From: Eubacteriales bacterium
GTDB taxonomy: Bacteria > Bacillota > Clostridia > Lachnospirales > Lachnospiraceae
DNA: 50,838 nucleotides
Direction of reading: 5' to 3'
Assembly (NCBI GenBank): GCA_030524745.1
Contig: JAUNGC010000028.1
Coordinates: forward strand, 1 to 50,838
Both the position numbers and the translations under genes were made by a program. Below are positions 495 through 6,178 of the stretch, one piece after another; within the stretch, counting starts at the first letter, position 1, and every line of letters begins with the position of its first letter. The notes under the pieces were generated by a model that saw only the letters and a list, made by a program, of their open reading frames with translations, ran no database searches and had not been told where the DNA came from.

Positions 495-523
495 TTGACA
501 TATTTTTAAAGCATATATAAAAT
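495..523 (+). promoter_or_regulatory. Sigma-A type promoter of Rpn copy A
   Basis: Perfect -35 TTGACA (495-500), 17-base spacer, -10 TAAAAT (518-523). It is conserved exactly in copy B. This is one of the strongest promoters in the window. The -10 overlaps the left arm of the hairpin that follows. Confidence 0.85.
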
Positions 524-742
524 GGAATCGTAGCAGGAATGCGATTCCATTTTATTATGTGAAAATTCTTAATTCGCCTGTGCCGATTCCGGTCAGGCAG
601 ATTCCTGGCATTTCGCCGACATTTTCACACACACAATTGATGTTGGTAGAGCCGGAGTCAGCCGGGGAATTTGAGCAAAGCAGGCCAGAATGCTCATTTC
701 GCTGTTCTCGGGGGCGTGGTATCTGCCGGAAACGGAGGAAAT
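520..742 (+). promoter_or_regulatory. Structured 5' region of Rpn copy A
   Basis: Two nested features lie between promoter and gene. First, an 11-base inverted repeat (AAATGGAATCG at 520-530, CGATTCCATTT at 542-552) sits across the expected transcription start and is followed by TTATTA. It could be an operator, a 5' RNA hairpin or an early terminator. Second, TGTGAAAAT at 558-566 pairs with ATTTTCACA at 621-629 to close a loop of about 54 bases that contains further short stems. A GTG-started frame (559-819) overlaps the gene but lacks a ribosome binding site. The whole leader is preserved in copy B. Confidence 0.55.
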
Positions 743-1651
743 ATGAGTATTACGAAGAAGAAACTGGAAGACATGGATGTGATGGACGATTTTCTGATGG
801 GACAGCTTGCCTCAGATGAAGAGGTCGGAAAGGATTTCTGCCGTAGGATGTTGTCATCTTTATTGCAGAAAGATATCGGGAAACTGAAAATTACAGCGCA
901 AAAGGTATTGCCAGCCTTTTCGCCGCATCTGCGAGGCATCCGGATGGATGTGGAGGTAGAGGAGTATGAACCGGCAAAGGACGAAGAAGAACCGACAACC
1001 ATGAATATTTACGATGTAGAGCCCCATCTGCAGGCGAATCTGGATCTGCCCCGGCACAATCGCTTTTATCAGGCACGGATCGACAGCCGCGGCTTAAAGA
1101 GCGGAGAGAAGGATTTTTCCAGGCTTCCCAATCTGTATGTGCTGACAATCCTGAATTTTGATCCTTTCGGAGAAGACTTCATGATGTATACGGTGCGGAA
1201 CAGATGTTTGGAAGTTCCGGAACTGGAATACAGAGACGGTTTATATTTTTACTACTTTTATACAGGCGGTACAAAGGGCGGAAGCAGCAAGCTGCGGACG
1301 ATGCTCCGATATATTCAGGACAGCCGGAAAGAAAATGCGACGGATGAGGCTACGAGAGAACTTCACAATTATGTGAGCAGAGTGAAAGTGCAGCCGGAGG
1401 TGAAACAGGCATATATGAGGTATGAAGAGATTATATACTATGAGCGGAAAGAGGCGGCGGAAGAAGCGGTCAAAAATACAAAGGTGCAGGATATTCTGGA
1501 ACTGTTGGAAGAATATGGAGATGTGCCGGAAAATGTGAAAATGCGTCTGAATGAAGAAGTATGTGATGAAAAATTGAAACGATGGCATAAACTCGCGGCG
1601 AAAGTTGACAGCATAGATGCATTTGTAAGCCAAATGGAGCAGAATGGTTAA
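743..1651 (+). CDS. Rpn/PD-(D/E)XK family nuclease (putative transposase), copy A
   Basis: A 302-residue protein of the Rpn (recombination-promoting nuclease, formerly YhgA-like transposase) group. These are DNA endonucleases implicated in recombination and in anti-phage defence. The core of the PDDEXK_2-type fold is visible: IRMDVEVEEYEP, then NIYDVEPHLQ with the catalytic acidic residue, then LPRHNRFYQARIDSR and LPNLYVLTILNFDPFG. After a helical linker (KEAAEEAVKNTK) comes a separate C-terminal domain of about 60 residues starting VQDILELLEEYG. I chose ATG 743 because GGAGG at 734-738 lies just upstream; an in-frame ATG at 671 would extend the protein by 24 residues but has no site. An internal ATG at 1415 could give a C-terminal product (see findings). 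Confidence 0.85.
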   Translation: MSITKKKLEDMDVMDDFLMGQLASDEEVGKDFCRRMLSSLLQKDIGKLKITAQKVLPAFSPHLRGIRMDVEVEEYEPAKDEEEPTTMNIYDVEPHLQANLDLPRHNRFYQARIDSRGLKSGEKDFSRLPNLYVLTILNFDPFGEDFMMYTVRNRCLEVPELEYRDGLYFYYFYTGGTKGGSSKLRTMLRYIQDSRKENATDEATRELHNYVSRVKVQPEVKQAYMRYEEIIYYERKEAAEEAVKNTKVQDILELLEEYGDVPENVKMRLNEEVCDEKLKRWHKLAAKVDSIDAFVSQMEQNG

Positions 1652-1746: not shown

Positions 1747-1786
1747 CTATGACAGGAGCAGTACGCTTGGCTGAGAGAGGGGAATG

Positions 1787-3286
1787 ATGGAGACTATACA
1801 TACTAAGTTGATTAAGGAATTTAAAAAATTAGCAGTAATAAAGTCTGTTTTGCTGACTATTAACTTGATATGTATTTTTTTTAGTGCGAATTGTCTTTCT
1901 CAGCTTCCGCAGATTTTGCAGGGGACAAGCCCAGAGCGTGCGTGGCGGCTGCTTGGGATGCTCGCGTTGATTTTTTGTGTGCAGTTATTGTGCGGATTCC
2001 TGGAAAAAGCTTTTTGGGTTGCTCAAAAGAGTCAAAAAATGAATTGTATGGAACTGTTTTTATACCGTAAGGTTCTCCGCAGTGGAGTAGAAGCAGGACA
2101 GGATAGCCAGCTTACGGTAGCATGTGGAAAAGATTTAGTGGAATGTGTGGAATATCTTGTGGGAACGGTGCCACATTTTTTCTGCTCAGTAATAGGTGTA
2201 ACAGGATATTCATTTTATCTTTTGATACAGAAAAATGGTTTTGTATTGTTGTGTTTGATGGTGTTGATAGGTTTGGCTCAGTTTGTACCATCTGTGATTA
2301 TGGAAAAATATCTGATTCAGAATTATATTCGGGCGGGGGAACAGGAGGAAGCCCTGCGGCAGGAATTGGTTTCCGGATTGGCTGGTTTTTATACAATTAA
2401 AAAGCTGGATCTTCAGGATTGGTTCATGAGAAAATATCGAAAGCGTCAAGGAGAATTCAGAAAGGCAGGCGAATGTGCCAGTCTGACATCCAGCGTGCAG
2501 TCCGCGATGTTTTCAGGCGTGTTGCTTTTGCAGCAGGCAGGTGTGTTGGTAATCGGTGCAGCTGGCGTAGCATTAGGCTGGTTTTCTTTGGAGATATTGA
2601 TTGCAGCTTATGTGCTTTCCGGGAGTTTTTTCGGATATATGCAGGCAATCGGGGCAGCGCGCGCGCAGAAAGGAGTTTTTGAGGCAGCGTTGCAGAGGCT
2701 GGAGAAATTGATGGCACAGAAAGAAGGCGTAAACGGATTTTTTGAAGAGTTACGATTTACGTTCCCTGATGACGGATTGTGGATTGTAAAGGGCGAAAAC
2801 GGTGCTGGAAAATCTACATTGTTTTCCATTCTGGCAGGATATCGGAACAATAAGGAGATCATTCAATGGAAGGGAAAAGAACTTTCAGCACGGGAGCGGG
2901 AGAATTTGGTGGGGTGGTGTCCTCAGATGTTTATACAGAGTTCACTTTCATTTAAAGAATTATTGGTAAAAGGAAAGTTTGACCAGAACATTTTACAAAA
3001 TTGCCTGGAGTTGTTCGGGATTGACTGGTCGCTTTGGGACAAGCCATTAAACCGGCTTTCGGGAGGCGAGCAGAAAAAATTTATGCTTGCGTTCACATTT
3101 GCAGAGCCGTGGGATATCCTGTTGTTGGATGAGCCGGATGTTTCATTGGATCAAAACGGCAAAAAAATTCTTCGGATGCTTTTAAAGAAGGAGAAACGTT
3201 TAGTATTGATGGCTACGCATATGGAAGAATGGGACGATATGGCTGTTGGAATAATTAAAGTGAAAGGGGGACAGATTGATGAGTAG
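1787..3286 (+). CDS. ABC transporter, fused permease and ATPase (half-exporter)
   Basis: About 499 residues: a type-1 exporter membrane domain followed by a nucleotide-binding domain. Hydrophobic stretches are near residues 18-38, 55-75, 130-170 and 240-290. Walker A is GENGAGKST near 337, a Q-loop Gln lies in WCPQMF, the signature LSGGEQ is near 425, Walker B ILLLDEPD near 445, and the switch His in ATHMEE. All catalytic elements are intact. ATG 1784 and ATG 1787 are adjacent; the second is better placed after GAGAGGGG. At 500 residues it is short for the family (usually 550-600). The gene overlaps the next ABC gene by 8 bases, so they would form a heterodimer. The substrate cannot be read from sequence. 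The region is visibly more AT-rich than the core genes of the window. Confidence 0.85.
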   Translation: METIHTKLIKEFKKLAVIKSVLLTINLICIFFSANCLSQLPQILQGTSPERAWRLLGMLALIFCVQLLCGFLEKAFWVAQKSQKMNCMELFLYRKVLRSGVEAGQDSQLTVACGKDLVECVEYLVGTVPHFFCSVIGVTGYSFYLLIQKNGFVLLCLMVLIGLAQFVPSVIMEKYLIQNYIRAGEQEEALRQELVSGLAGFYTIKKLDLQDWFMRKYRKRQGEFRKAGECASLTSSVQSAMFSGVLLLQQAGVLVIGAAGVALGWFSLEILIAAYVLSGSFFGYMQAIGAARAQKGVFEAALQRLEKLMAQKEGVNGFFEELRFTFPDDGLWIVKGENGAGKSTLFSILAGYRNNKEIIQWKGKELSARERENLVGWCPQMFIQSSLSFKELLVKGKFDQNILQNCLELFGIDWSLWDKPLNRLSGGEQKKFMLAFTFAEPWDILLLDEPDVSLDQNGKKILRMLLKKEKRLVLMATHMEEWDDMAVGIIKVKGGQIDE

Positions 3287-4828
3287 AAAAATGCCGGATA
3301 TTAAAATTTTAGCAGGACTTTGGAAATATGTATGGCCTGCAGCGTTGTTATTGTATGTAAGTTATTTTTTTTATCGTTGGATCGGTGTGTATACTTCAGG
3401 AATTCTTGGAAATATTGCGGATGGAGTTTTGAGCGGAGGCGAGTTAGACCGTGCATTTCCATTACAGCTTGCATTAGCGTTTGTTTGCGCATTGGCGTTA
3501 ATGCCGGGAATCGATCTTCTGACGAATATACTTCTCTTTCGGAAAGGACTGAAGTATGAAGCTGAGGTAACGGAGGCGGTATTTAGCAAGGATGCGGAGC
3601 AAATTGGGCGATTACAATCCAATGAGTGGATGGCGAGAATTTTTGATGATCCATTGGCTTGGAGGCAAATGGCATTGGTGACGCCAATGCGCATTTTGGC
3701 GGATGGGACTGTCTTTGTAATTGCATGGGTTCAGCTCATTTCTTTGGACATTTTTTTGGCATTTCTTTTTTTGGCAGGTGGAATTTTGGCTTTTGTTATT
3801 CAGCGGCTTTTTGAGAAAGCGAGTATCCGAATACAGGAAGAGAGCAGGGCTTATGAAGATAAAAAAACGATGTATCAGAGGAATTTCTTCAGTCCCATTC
3901 GTTTTGGGTAAAGCATCGGCTGGCAGATATGTTGGAGTCAAAGATGCGGATGCTTTTCCAGTGTTTTTTCAAACAAATACAGAAAAAAGGGTTGGTGATA
4001 GCTGCCGGAATTGATGTGGTTCAGAGGATAGCTGTGCTTGGGGCACTTTTGGGGGCGGTGGCATATGGTATTATGAAAATTCAGGGAGGAAGTCTGACAG
4101 CAGGAAATTTTGTGACAATTTATTTTCTCGTGGTATAGGTACGGACAATGGCAGAAAGTATCTTTAGAAGTGCGCAGGAGGAGAGAATGCGCTTTTTGCT
4201 GGAAAAAAATGAACAAAACGGGAAACTCCCCGTGCCAGAGTGGAAATCCTTGTCGGGGAGTCAGCTTTCCTATCGGTATAGGGGACAGAAGAATGGTACT
4301 ACCCCAGTGAACTTTTGCCTGAAAAGGGGAGAATTCATGCATCTGAAGGGGGAAAACGGTAGCGGGAAAACAACGTTGCTCAGGATATTGTGTGGTCTTT
4401 TTCCTTCTAAAAATAGTGAAGTTTTTCTGGATGGAAAGACATTAGATGAAGTTGACAGTGTTGCATGGAGAAAGAAAATTGCTTACATGCAACAGTTTCC
4501 TGACATTTTTCCGGGAAGTGTGAAAGAAAATGTGCGTATCGGCAATCTGAATCTGACAGAGGAAGAACTTGAACGGATTTTGGAGCAGACGGGTCTCTTG
4601 AGGCTTGCAGATAGAGTGCTTTGCGGTGTGTCAGGGGAACTTTCCGGGGGAGAGATAAAGATGATTGAAGCGGCCAGAATGCTGGCACGGATGAGTCAGG
4701 CGGAATTGCTCATTTTTGATGAGCCCTTTGAACAACTCGATGAATCTGGACGGATATTGATCAGGAATTGGCTTAAAGATGAGAAAAAAAGCAGAATTCT
4801 TGTGACACATGCGGCTGAAATTGCTTAA
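3279..4828 (+). pseudogene. Second ABC half-exporter, broken by a frameshift and a stop
   Basis: Three consecutive pieces of one ABC permease-ATPase. 3279-3911 holds the first membrane segments. The frame must then shift by one base near the seven-A run at 3861-3867; adding one A restores a sensible reading into RLADMLESKMRM. The second piece ends at TAG 4136-4138 just after TIYFLVV, and the same frame reopens directly into VRTMAESIF with a complete ATPase domain: Walker A GENGSGKTT, signature LSGGE, Walker B LLIFDEP, and VTHAAE. Reconstructed length is about 517 residues, matching its partner upstream. Two independent lesions argue for real decay rather than one sequencing error. The ATPase domain alone (4148-4828) has an ATG but no good ribosome binding site. 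Confidence 0.85.
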
Positions 4829-4907
4829 TATGGAACTTGGTTACTTTGGTTTAAGATCGCCCTCTGAACAGTAACAAAGAGGTTGGAAGCAACTGAAAAC
4901 AAAAAGA

Positions 4908-4936
4908 TTGACATATTTTTAAAGCATATATAAAAT
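4908..4936 (+). promoter_or_regulatory. Sigma-A type promoter of Rpn copy B
   Basis: TTGACA 4908-4913, 17-base spacer, TAAAAT 4931-4936, identical to the copy A promoter. Only the bases just upstream of the -35 differ. Confidence 0.85.
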
Positions 4937-5155
4937 GGAATCGTAGCAGGAATGCGATTCCATTTTATTATGTGAAAATTCTTAATTCGCCTGTGCCGAT
5001 TCCGGTCAGGCAGATTCCTGGCATTTCGCCGACATTTTCACACACACAATTGATGTTGGTAGAGCCGGAGTCAGCCGGGGAATTTGAGCAAAGCAGGCCA
5101 GAATGCTCATTTCGCTGTTCTCGGGGGCGTGGTATCTGCCGGAAACGGAGGAAAT
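4933..5155 (+). promoter_or_regulatory. Structured 5' region of Rpn copy B
   Basis: Same elements as at 520-742: the inverted repeat around the transcription start (arms at 4933-4943 and 4955-4965) and the outer leader stem (4971-4979 with 5034-5042). Perfect conservation between copies is expected from the recent duplication and is not by itself evidence of function. Confidence 0.55.
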
Positions 5156-6076
5156 ATGAGTATTACGAAGAAGAAACTGGAAGACATGGATGTGATGGAC
5201 GATTTTCTGATGGGACAGCTTGCCTCAGATGAAGAGGTCGGAAAGGATTTCTGCCGTAGGATGTTGTCATCTTTATTGCAGAAAGATATCGGGAAACTGA
5301 AAATTACAGCGCAAAAGGTATTGCCAGCCTTTTCGCCGCATCTGCGAGGCATCCGGATGGATGTGGAGGTAGAGGAGTATGAACCGGCAAAGGACGAAGA
5401 AGAACCGACAACCATGAATATTTACGATGTAGAGCCCCATCTGCAGGCGAATCTGGATCTGCCCCGGCACAATCGCTTTTATCAGGCACGGATCGACAGC
5501 CGCGGCTTAAAGAGCGGAGAGAAGGATTTTTCCAGGCTTCCCAATCTGTATGTGCTGACAATCCTGAATTTTGATCCTTTCGGAGAAGACTTCATGATGT
5601 ATACGGTGCGGAACAGATGTTTGGAAGTTCCGGAACTGGAATACAGAGACGGTTTATATTTTTACTACTTTTATACAGGCGGTACAAAGGGCGGAAGCAG
5701 CAAGCTGCGGACGATGCTCCGATATATTCAGGACAGCCGGAAAGAAAATGCGACGGATGAGGCTACGAGAGAACTTCACAATTATGTGAGCAGAGTGAAA
5801 GTGCAGCCGGAGGTGAAACAGGCATATATGAGGTATGAAGAGATTATATACTATGAACGAAAAGAGGCGGCGGAGGAAGCGGCCAGAGCAGCCACTAAAA
5901 ACACAAAGGTGCAGGATATTCTGGAACTGTTGGAAGAATATGGGGAGGTGCCGGAAAATGTGAAAATGCGTCTCAATGAAGAAGTATGTGATGACAAATT
6001 GAAACGTTGGCATAAACTTGCGGCGAAAGTTGACAGCATAGATGCATTTGTAAGCCAAATGGAGCAGAATGGTTAA
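5156..6076 (+). CDS. Rpn/PD-(D/E)XK family nuclease (putative transposase), copy B
   Basis: A 306-residue paralog of the 743-1651 protein, same family and presumed activity. The nuclease part is identical in sequence. The change begins at base 5857: the linker reads KEAAEEAARAATKNTK, four residues longer than in copy A, and the C-terminal domain carries EYGEVPEN and CDDKLKRW in place of EYGDVPEN and CDEKLKRW. The start is ATG 5156 with the same GGAGG site. No clear terminator follows; 6077-6178 holds nothing else recognisable. Confidence 0.85.
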   Translation: MSITKKKLEDMDVMDDFLMGQLASDEEVGKDFCRRMLSSLLQKDIGKLKITAQKVLPAFSPHLRGIRMDVEVEEYEPAKDEEEPTTMNIYDVEPHLQANLDLPRHNRFYQARIDSRGLKSGEKDFSRLPNLYVLTILNFDPFGEDFMMYTVRNRCLEVPELEYRDGLYFYYFYTGGTKGGSSKLRTMLRYIQDSRKENATDEATRELHNYVSRVKVQPEVKQAYMRYEEIIYYERKEAAEEAARAATKNTKVQDILELLEEYGEVPENVKMRLNEEVCDDKLKRWHKLAAKVDSIDAFVSQMEQNG

Positions 6077-6178
6077 ACTCATGCAGCGTTTGAATGAATG
6101 CAATGGGTGTAACCATTCTGTGACGCCGAACGATTACCGGTATGTCTTGCTTGAAAATACAAAAAATAAAAAAAGTGC

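Follow-up and report, generated by a model that had tools for sequence, protein, structure and literature searches.

How can two genes on one stretch of DNA agree in every base over most of their length and then part abruptly close to their ends? The stretch analysed here (the window, 50,838 nucleotides) is one entire contig (G000:C50) of a Lachnospiraceae genome in 63 contigs that is 93.25% complete, and it holds two such genes on the + strand, copy A (743..1651, 302 aa) and copy B (5156..6076, 306 aa). Local alignment and a listing of shared tracts give no difference between the two over 950 bp (494-1443), then a divergent patch with 11 substitutions and a 12-bp indel (1444..1594, + strand), and then renewed identity for 67 bp (1595-1661). 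A change-point test places the break at codon 234 (0/701 differences before, 11/208 after), and since this was equalled by none of 500 permutations, the differences are not clustered by chance. The first-pass annotation had described exactly this block, followed by about eleven substitutions and a four-residue indel, and the alignment bears it out. Its statement that the nuclease part is identical is correct but too narrow, because the block runs from the -35 box onward and includes 249 bp ahead of the open reading frame. Likewise, the divergence does lie in the C-terminal part, although it begins 29 bp downstream of the ATG at 1415 and stops before the stop codon.

In a protein-guided alignment the changes between A and B number 14 (ten synonymous, four non-synonymous) instead of 11, because the gap is placed differently. 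The two proteins differ by three residues (V/A or V/T depending on gap placement, D/E, and E/D) and by four residues inserted in B (5885..5896, + strand) inside the first helix of the tail (helix 1); a third copy, C, has this insertion and A does not. The notable difference between the tails of A and B is one four-residue repeat.

The two genes are direct repeats around positions 1784-4828 of the window, and recombination between them could delete or duplicate that segment. Its genes are presumably ABC transporters, judging by motifs; the second of them is apparently interrupted (open reading frames 3276-3911, 3929-4138 and 4148-4828). A search for inverted repeats of at least 12 nt found only a leader hairpin around A, and around B the leader hairpin plus one imperfect 18-bp pair (6065-6120) lying across the stop codon and the bases that follow. 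The search gave no such repeat at A, and no terminal inverted repeats spanning the A or the B unit.

Judged by their sequences, A, B and C look like Rpn toxin/intragenic-antitoxin genes. In E. coli one rpn gene encodes both a toxic nuclease, RpnL, and its inhibitor, RpnS (Zhong et al. 2023, PMC10327210; here and below as far as its excerpted text goes). Like E. coli RpnA-E and the plasmid-borne RpnP2 (PMC10327210), the genes described here would combine a predicted nuclease domain with a small tail modelled as helical. The profile TIGR01784 matches copy A (E 3.5e-10, 40.2 bits) and copy B (E 2.4e-10, 40.7 bits), in both cases below its cut-off of 52.1, and for A the assignment to a full-length RpnL is accompanied by a fold model. 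A Pfam search of the copies returned no nuclease match. The family of the window carries E-P-H where 16 more distant alignment rows have E-M-Q. In the predicted model of the B tail a long helix (residues 4-36) is followed by three short helices (mean pLDDT 78.6), and the models place the A/B indel inside one long helix. Sequence comparison of the tail with solved structures gave nothing significant, and structural searches of the PDB gave no confident match; the published RpnAS structure 7TH0 was absent from the structural matches, which bears neither for nor against kinship. Searches with defence-system profiles found nothing convincing, and no relative was found in the viral contigs searched and no match in the plasmids searched. 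A phage search returned a single weak match, to MT835536.1 (37% across 71% of the query length).

The known rpn genes of E. coli (RpnA-E, RpnP2) carry an internal start with its own ribosome-binding site at the tail (PMC10327210, excerpted text), a feature that in the present genes is predicted from sequence. The ATG codons at 1415 in A (Met225) and 5828 in B had been reported in the first-pass annotation as in frame, preceded by GGAGG 14 nt upstream, and as opening products of 78 and 82 residues, and these coordinates hold: the candidate ribosome-binding site of A is the SD-like motif at 1396..1400 (+ strand), and the putative RpnS products are 1415..1651 in A and 5828..6076 in B (both + strand). 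Upstream of the Met, an SD-like motif four or more bases long stands in 30/30 rows selected for that Met, rows that include A, B, C, relatives and tandem neighbours in L095 and L100 and so are not independent. The median SD duplex there is -9.5 kcal/mol, against -2.9 at 187 other internal Met codons of the same frames. Codon choice points the same way in relatives: an Arg at position -4 is encoded by AGG in 13/14 genes, compared with 43/280 Arg codons elsewhere (p 3e-10). This test covers 19 genes, 14 of them with Arg at -4, after exclusion of nine rows from the family of the window and two tandem neighbours; the A/B family has no Arg at -4, and the test therefore rests on relatives, in which the preference for AGG suggests to us that the ribosome-binding site is under selection. 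The 14-nt spacing between SD motif and ATG in A and B is longer than in most relatives, and initiation may therefore be weaker in these two copies. At the internal-start column Met is present in 23/23 rows, partly by construction, given that 16 of the 23 were chosen for it. In an unselected sample 31/85 rows have Met at that column, and by eye most of the others belong to a second subfamily with an insertion at the same place. On these comparative data Met225 is likely an internal start.

A reading in which this start is unused, and the tail serves the full-length nuclease only as a domain for oligomerisation or for the substrate, can draw on the long spacing in A and B and on a promoter scan that gave no promoter-like site on the + strand between 523 and 1415 from which a short transcript might come. 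We nevertheless consider it unlikely, given the SD strength and the biased use of AGG at this position in relatives. Published work also describes internal starts in each of the five rpn genes of E. coli and in one gene of C. difficile, studied by expression in E. coli (PMC10327210, excerpted text). By the description given there, the latter gene, from a Gram-positive host (Clostridioides difficile), is comparable to ours: its RpnS was made in E. coli and was lost on mutating the predicted ribosome-binding site together with the internal start.

The third close copy, C, lies on another contig (G000:C21:122162-123073). Alignment and tract listing show a core tract identical in A, B and C at 753..1443 (+ strand; 691 bp between C and A), which between C and B extends over 753-1504 (764 bp, insert included). 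C departs from A and B on both sides, upstream at 752 and within the leader, downstream in the tail beyond the shared tract; its sole core difference is the one at 752, which is non-synonymous. B thus shares its first helix with C and nearly all of its remaining tail with A, a combination which implies at least two exchange events. Seven copies more than 60% identical are found in the genome, namely A, B, C, E (contig C61), F (C21:193917) and the tandem pair D1/D2 (C43), so that the multi-copy and tandem-array habit of the Rpn family, known from E. coli, whose genomes carry several rpn copies along with tandem duplicates (PMC10327210, excerpted text), is present here as well. The tails of E, D1 and D2 barely align with those of A, B and C (61-74% difference), whereas their cores are homologous.

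D1 and D2 (L053, G000:C43:8500-11667) share the same broken nuclease, identical over 507 bp including the stop codons, and homogenisation is therefore independent of a working nuclease. In their aligned 3' part 0/228 differences are followed by 43/190, with the break about 6 bp into the tail. Their tails are open and differ from each other, and both keep the internal SD motif and ATG. Selection on RpnS alone is not claimed for this pair, because the tail divergence may be older than the loss of the nuclease.

Tail-like sequences also occur apart from such cores. Frames on contigs C6, C31, C41 and C63 of the genome match A by the tail only and carry AEGK/GRSEG-like four-residue repeats; the C63 frame has a sub-threshold match to Transposase_31 (E 0.051). 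A candidate stand-alone antitoxin at G000:C10:20877 was rejected, being a 66-codon frame without ATG just after a tRNA-Val gene. On this contig, L057:2253-2579 is an rpn tail remnant without ATG directly downstream of a tRNA-Val gene.

Is the tail fast, or is the core young? Synonymous differences answer for the second. In the core they number 0/143 for each of the pairs A-B, A-C and B-C, and in the tail 10/44.3, 24/45.5 and 19/48.8, respectively. Together with the abrupt boundary, these counts indicate that the core, for A and B with its promoter and leader, is a recent copy between loci and that the tails which stayed in place are of older date. Recombination that copies the toxin part between gene copies probably explains how one core came to stand before different tails. 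Tail dN/dS is 0.08 for A-B, 0.15 for A-C and 0.21 for B-C, and it lies between 0.08 and 0.26 in 14/15 pairs, the fifteenth (C-F) being saturated and without a ratio. As tail changes are mostly synonymous, the tail is older and not faster. As worded in the first-pass annotation, the divergence of the C-terminal part is in this respect not supported, the tail being not unusually divergent. For the same reason positive selection driving fast tail evolution was rejected. Tails that diversified quickly by point mutation under such selection would fit the strong selection for repeat variation proposed by Zhong et al. (PMC10327210, excerpted text), and with ratios as low as those just given we regard this explanation as highly improbable. 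Recent slippage as the source of the 12-bp insert was also discarded: with its two neighbours in B the insert disagrees at 7 and at 8 of its 12 bases, and it does not repeat either of them in tandem.

The break is not peculiar to A and B. Among 14 family pairs, which overlap and are therefore not independent, in nine the change point falls within codons 226-254 and is significant; in the remaining five it falls at codon 229 without significance (one pair) or elsewhere (four, one of these at the alignment edge). The first-pass annotation had named the vanishing of the boundary with more paralogs as grounds for abandoning its proposal; the boundary persists in C, in D1/D2 and in two further genomes (G057 and G181), though the five pairs just mentioned lack a significant one at that place. 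Outside A, B and C the synonymous contrast between core and tail is found in 5/8 pairs (p 0.012-0.049), in one of them, G002a/G002b, in the reverse direction, the cores being less alike than the tails. Counted over eleven pairs, it is absent in three (G007-G002a, p 0.23; G007-G003b, p 0.28; L059-L060, p 0.66); the genomes G002, G003 and G007 belong to the same genus as the window. At L058 (G002:C10) a copy truncated at its N terminus sits in tandem behind a full-length one, and there too the tails are more similar than the cores. Separate phylogenies of the two halves, which the earlier annotation had suggested as a check, indicate that the halves differ in history. By the AU test the core data are incompatible with the tail tree (p = 5e-6), and the tail data taken alone come close to rejecting the core tree (p = 0.056), in trees of 11 sequences with four partial cores and with E, D1 and D2 left out.

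Twenty stretches from six many-copy genomes were searched for closer pairs, and pairs less than 30% different occurred in two of the six, G057 and G181. For both, the break tests left out the first 45 codons. G057 is a genome in one contig; its paralogs a and c have 26/749 differences before the break and 50/124 after it, and all five pairs tested, of 11 listed below 30% difference, break in the C-terminal part. The first 45 codons diverge in G057 as well. In the tandem pair of G181, 0/611 differences are followed by 5/235 and one four-residue repeat (1/200 permutations), the four-residue insertion lying slightly past a conserved Tyr-Met; the first 45 codons hold two differences, both ahead of the likely start Met. 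Elsewhere in G057, at L163 (G057:C1:733000-736300), adjacent paralogs have a similar repeat helix, and gene y combines an x-like core (89%, 865 bp) with an end closer to neighbour a (80%, 158 bp) than to x (74%, 94 bp).

Helix 1 varies in length by steps of four residues in 14/14 copies (L059 and L060 among them). From Met225 to the conserved start of the tail there are 19, 23, 27 or 31 residues wherever one tail type is present (11/11 copies), and 22, 30 or 34 in the case of the other (3/3). The first helix of E. coli RpnS contains four-residue repeats, located 8-20 residues downstream of the RpnS start, and one repeat added to RpnC abolished inhibition except when toxin and inhibitor both carried it (PMC10327210, excerpted text). 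The present genes share with RpnA-E and RpnP2 a first helix that varies by four-residue units (PMC10327210, same excerpts), and this variation, found in the same part of the helix, includes the A/B indel about 19 residues after Met225. A comparable case cited there is that of the restriction enzymes EcoR124I and EcoR124II, in which the number of four-residue TAEL repeats changes specificity; in those enzymes the repeats set the spacing of the DNA target, whereas here the proposed target is the pairing of toxin and antitoxin.

The identical A/B block starts with a sigma-70-like promoter, TTGACA-17-TAAAAT (495..523, + strand; same sequence for B at 4908-4936), predicted by consensus match only (11/12), and continues into a structured 5' leader (520..742 in A, + strand; MFE -80 kcal/mol, z -3.86), whose perfect hairpin has its arms at 517-530 and 542-555. 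A structured leader with a 5' hairpin, like that at 494-742 and 4907-5155 of the window, is kept before rpn paralogs on contigs C21, C43 and C61 of the genome. RNAalifold on five leaders found changes on both sides in 2/44 pairs, and Rfam gave the leader no match. The leader might control the ratio of toxin to antitoxin.

Taken together, A, B and C would be paralogous intragenic toxin-antitoxin genes of the Rpn type. The full-length RpnL would be a nuclease of PD-(D/E)XK-like type with a long helix and then a small helical tail at its end, and a start at Met225 (1415 in A, 5828 in B) would yield the tail alone, RpnS, which would pair with the same tail of RpnL and keep it inactive. With the core copied between loci, one toxin core carries tails differing in age and in first-helix length. 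If pairing runs through helix 1, RpnS of A should, owing to the one-repeat difference, inhibit RpnL of B poorly, and RpnS of B likewise RpnL of A, which would insulate recent duplicates from each other. A and B should then self-inhibit and not cross-inhibit, and cross-inhibition may persist between B and C, whose first helix is the same; repeat number cannot, therefore, insulate every pair. Core copying may keep the inhibitor of each copy specific to its own toxin. This combination of homogenised-core Rpn paralogs, older tails and repeat-based insulation is the explanation we favour, and we think it somewhat more probable than its negation. The earlier suggestion of variant inhibitor modules on a homogenised nuclease survives in its Rpn-like gene, likely internal start, RpnS-like tail, homogenised core and halves of different history, and needs correction in that the homogenised block comprises more than the nuclease.

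A simpler history may account for much of the same pattern: plain duplication and gene conversion, with tracts ending in helix 1 by chance or low complexity and with no insulating role. We give this appreciable weight, if less than even. The homogenised tract does take in promoter, leader and the dead-nuclease copies D1/D2, the tails look purified and show no sign of positive selection, helix 1 is common to B and C, and some pairs break elsewhere; yet nine of the 14 overlapping family pairs have their significant change point at codons 226-254, similar breaks recur in two other genomes, and helix length changes in four-residue units only. It could also be suspected that the identity arose in short-read assembly, by collapse of the repeat and placement of a single consensus core at all three loci. 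A genome in 63 contigs, with identity inside the repeat and divergence near the unique flanks, is what such a collapse would produce, but the same kind of break is found in the one-contig genome G057, for which collapse is unlikely, and, more weakly, between separately assembled species (G002a-G003a). These are other genomes; for A, B and C themselves an artefact is conceivable, though we consider it quite improbable. Beyond the preferred reading of homogenised cores with older, insulating tails, a bolder generalisation would hold that Rpn paralogs evolve by copying the toxin and keeping the tail, that breakpoints gather in helix 1 past the internal start, that duplicates become orthogonal by one repeat with the same nuclease, and that dead-nuclease orphans (D1, D2, F) persist as extra antitoxins; in this full form we regard it as doubtful, and offer it as a conjecture.

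The gene arrangement as such is already known, and the homogenised core is the new detail. Unlike RpnA-E and RpnP2 as portrayed in the excerpted literature, three paralogs share an identical core here and have tails of different age. Zhong et al. (PMC10327210) describe, in the excerpted text, tail variation among strains, tandem duplication and paralog specificity, and not the copying of cores between loci; among the matches listed in the Rpn literature, with few subscription papers covered, there was no report of a core copied between paralogs with the tails kept. Besides the preprint by Zhong et al., those matches comprised, on this topic, a 2017 paper by Kingston et al. and a small number of reviews or tools in which Rpn is mentioned. 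The codon-level evidence for the internal start extends the observation made in E. coli and C. difficile to relatives within the taxonomic family of the window. A, B and C constitute a natural test set for how duplicated self-inhibiting toxins avoid mutual silencing or poisoning: their nuclease is identical, A and B are one helix repeat apart, and B and C have the same helix and a different tail. Such a set could show whether specificity depends on the number of repeats or on the sequence of the tail.
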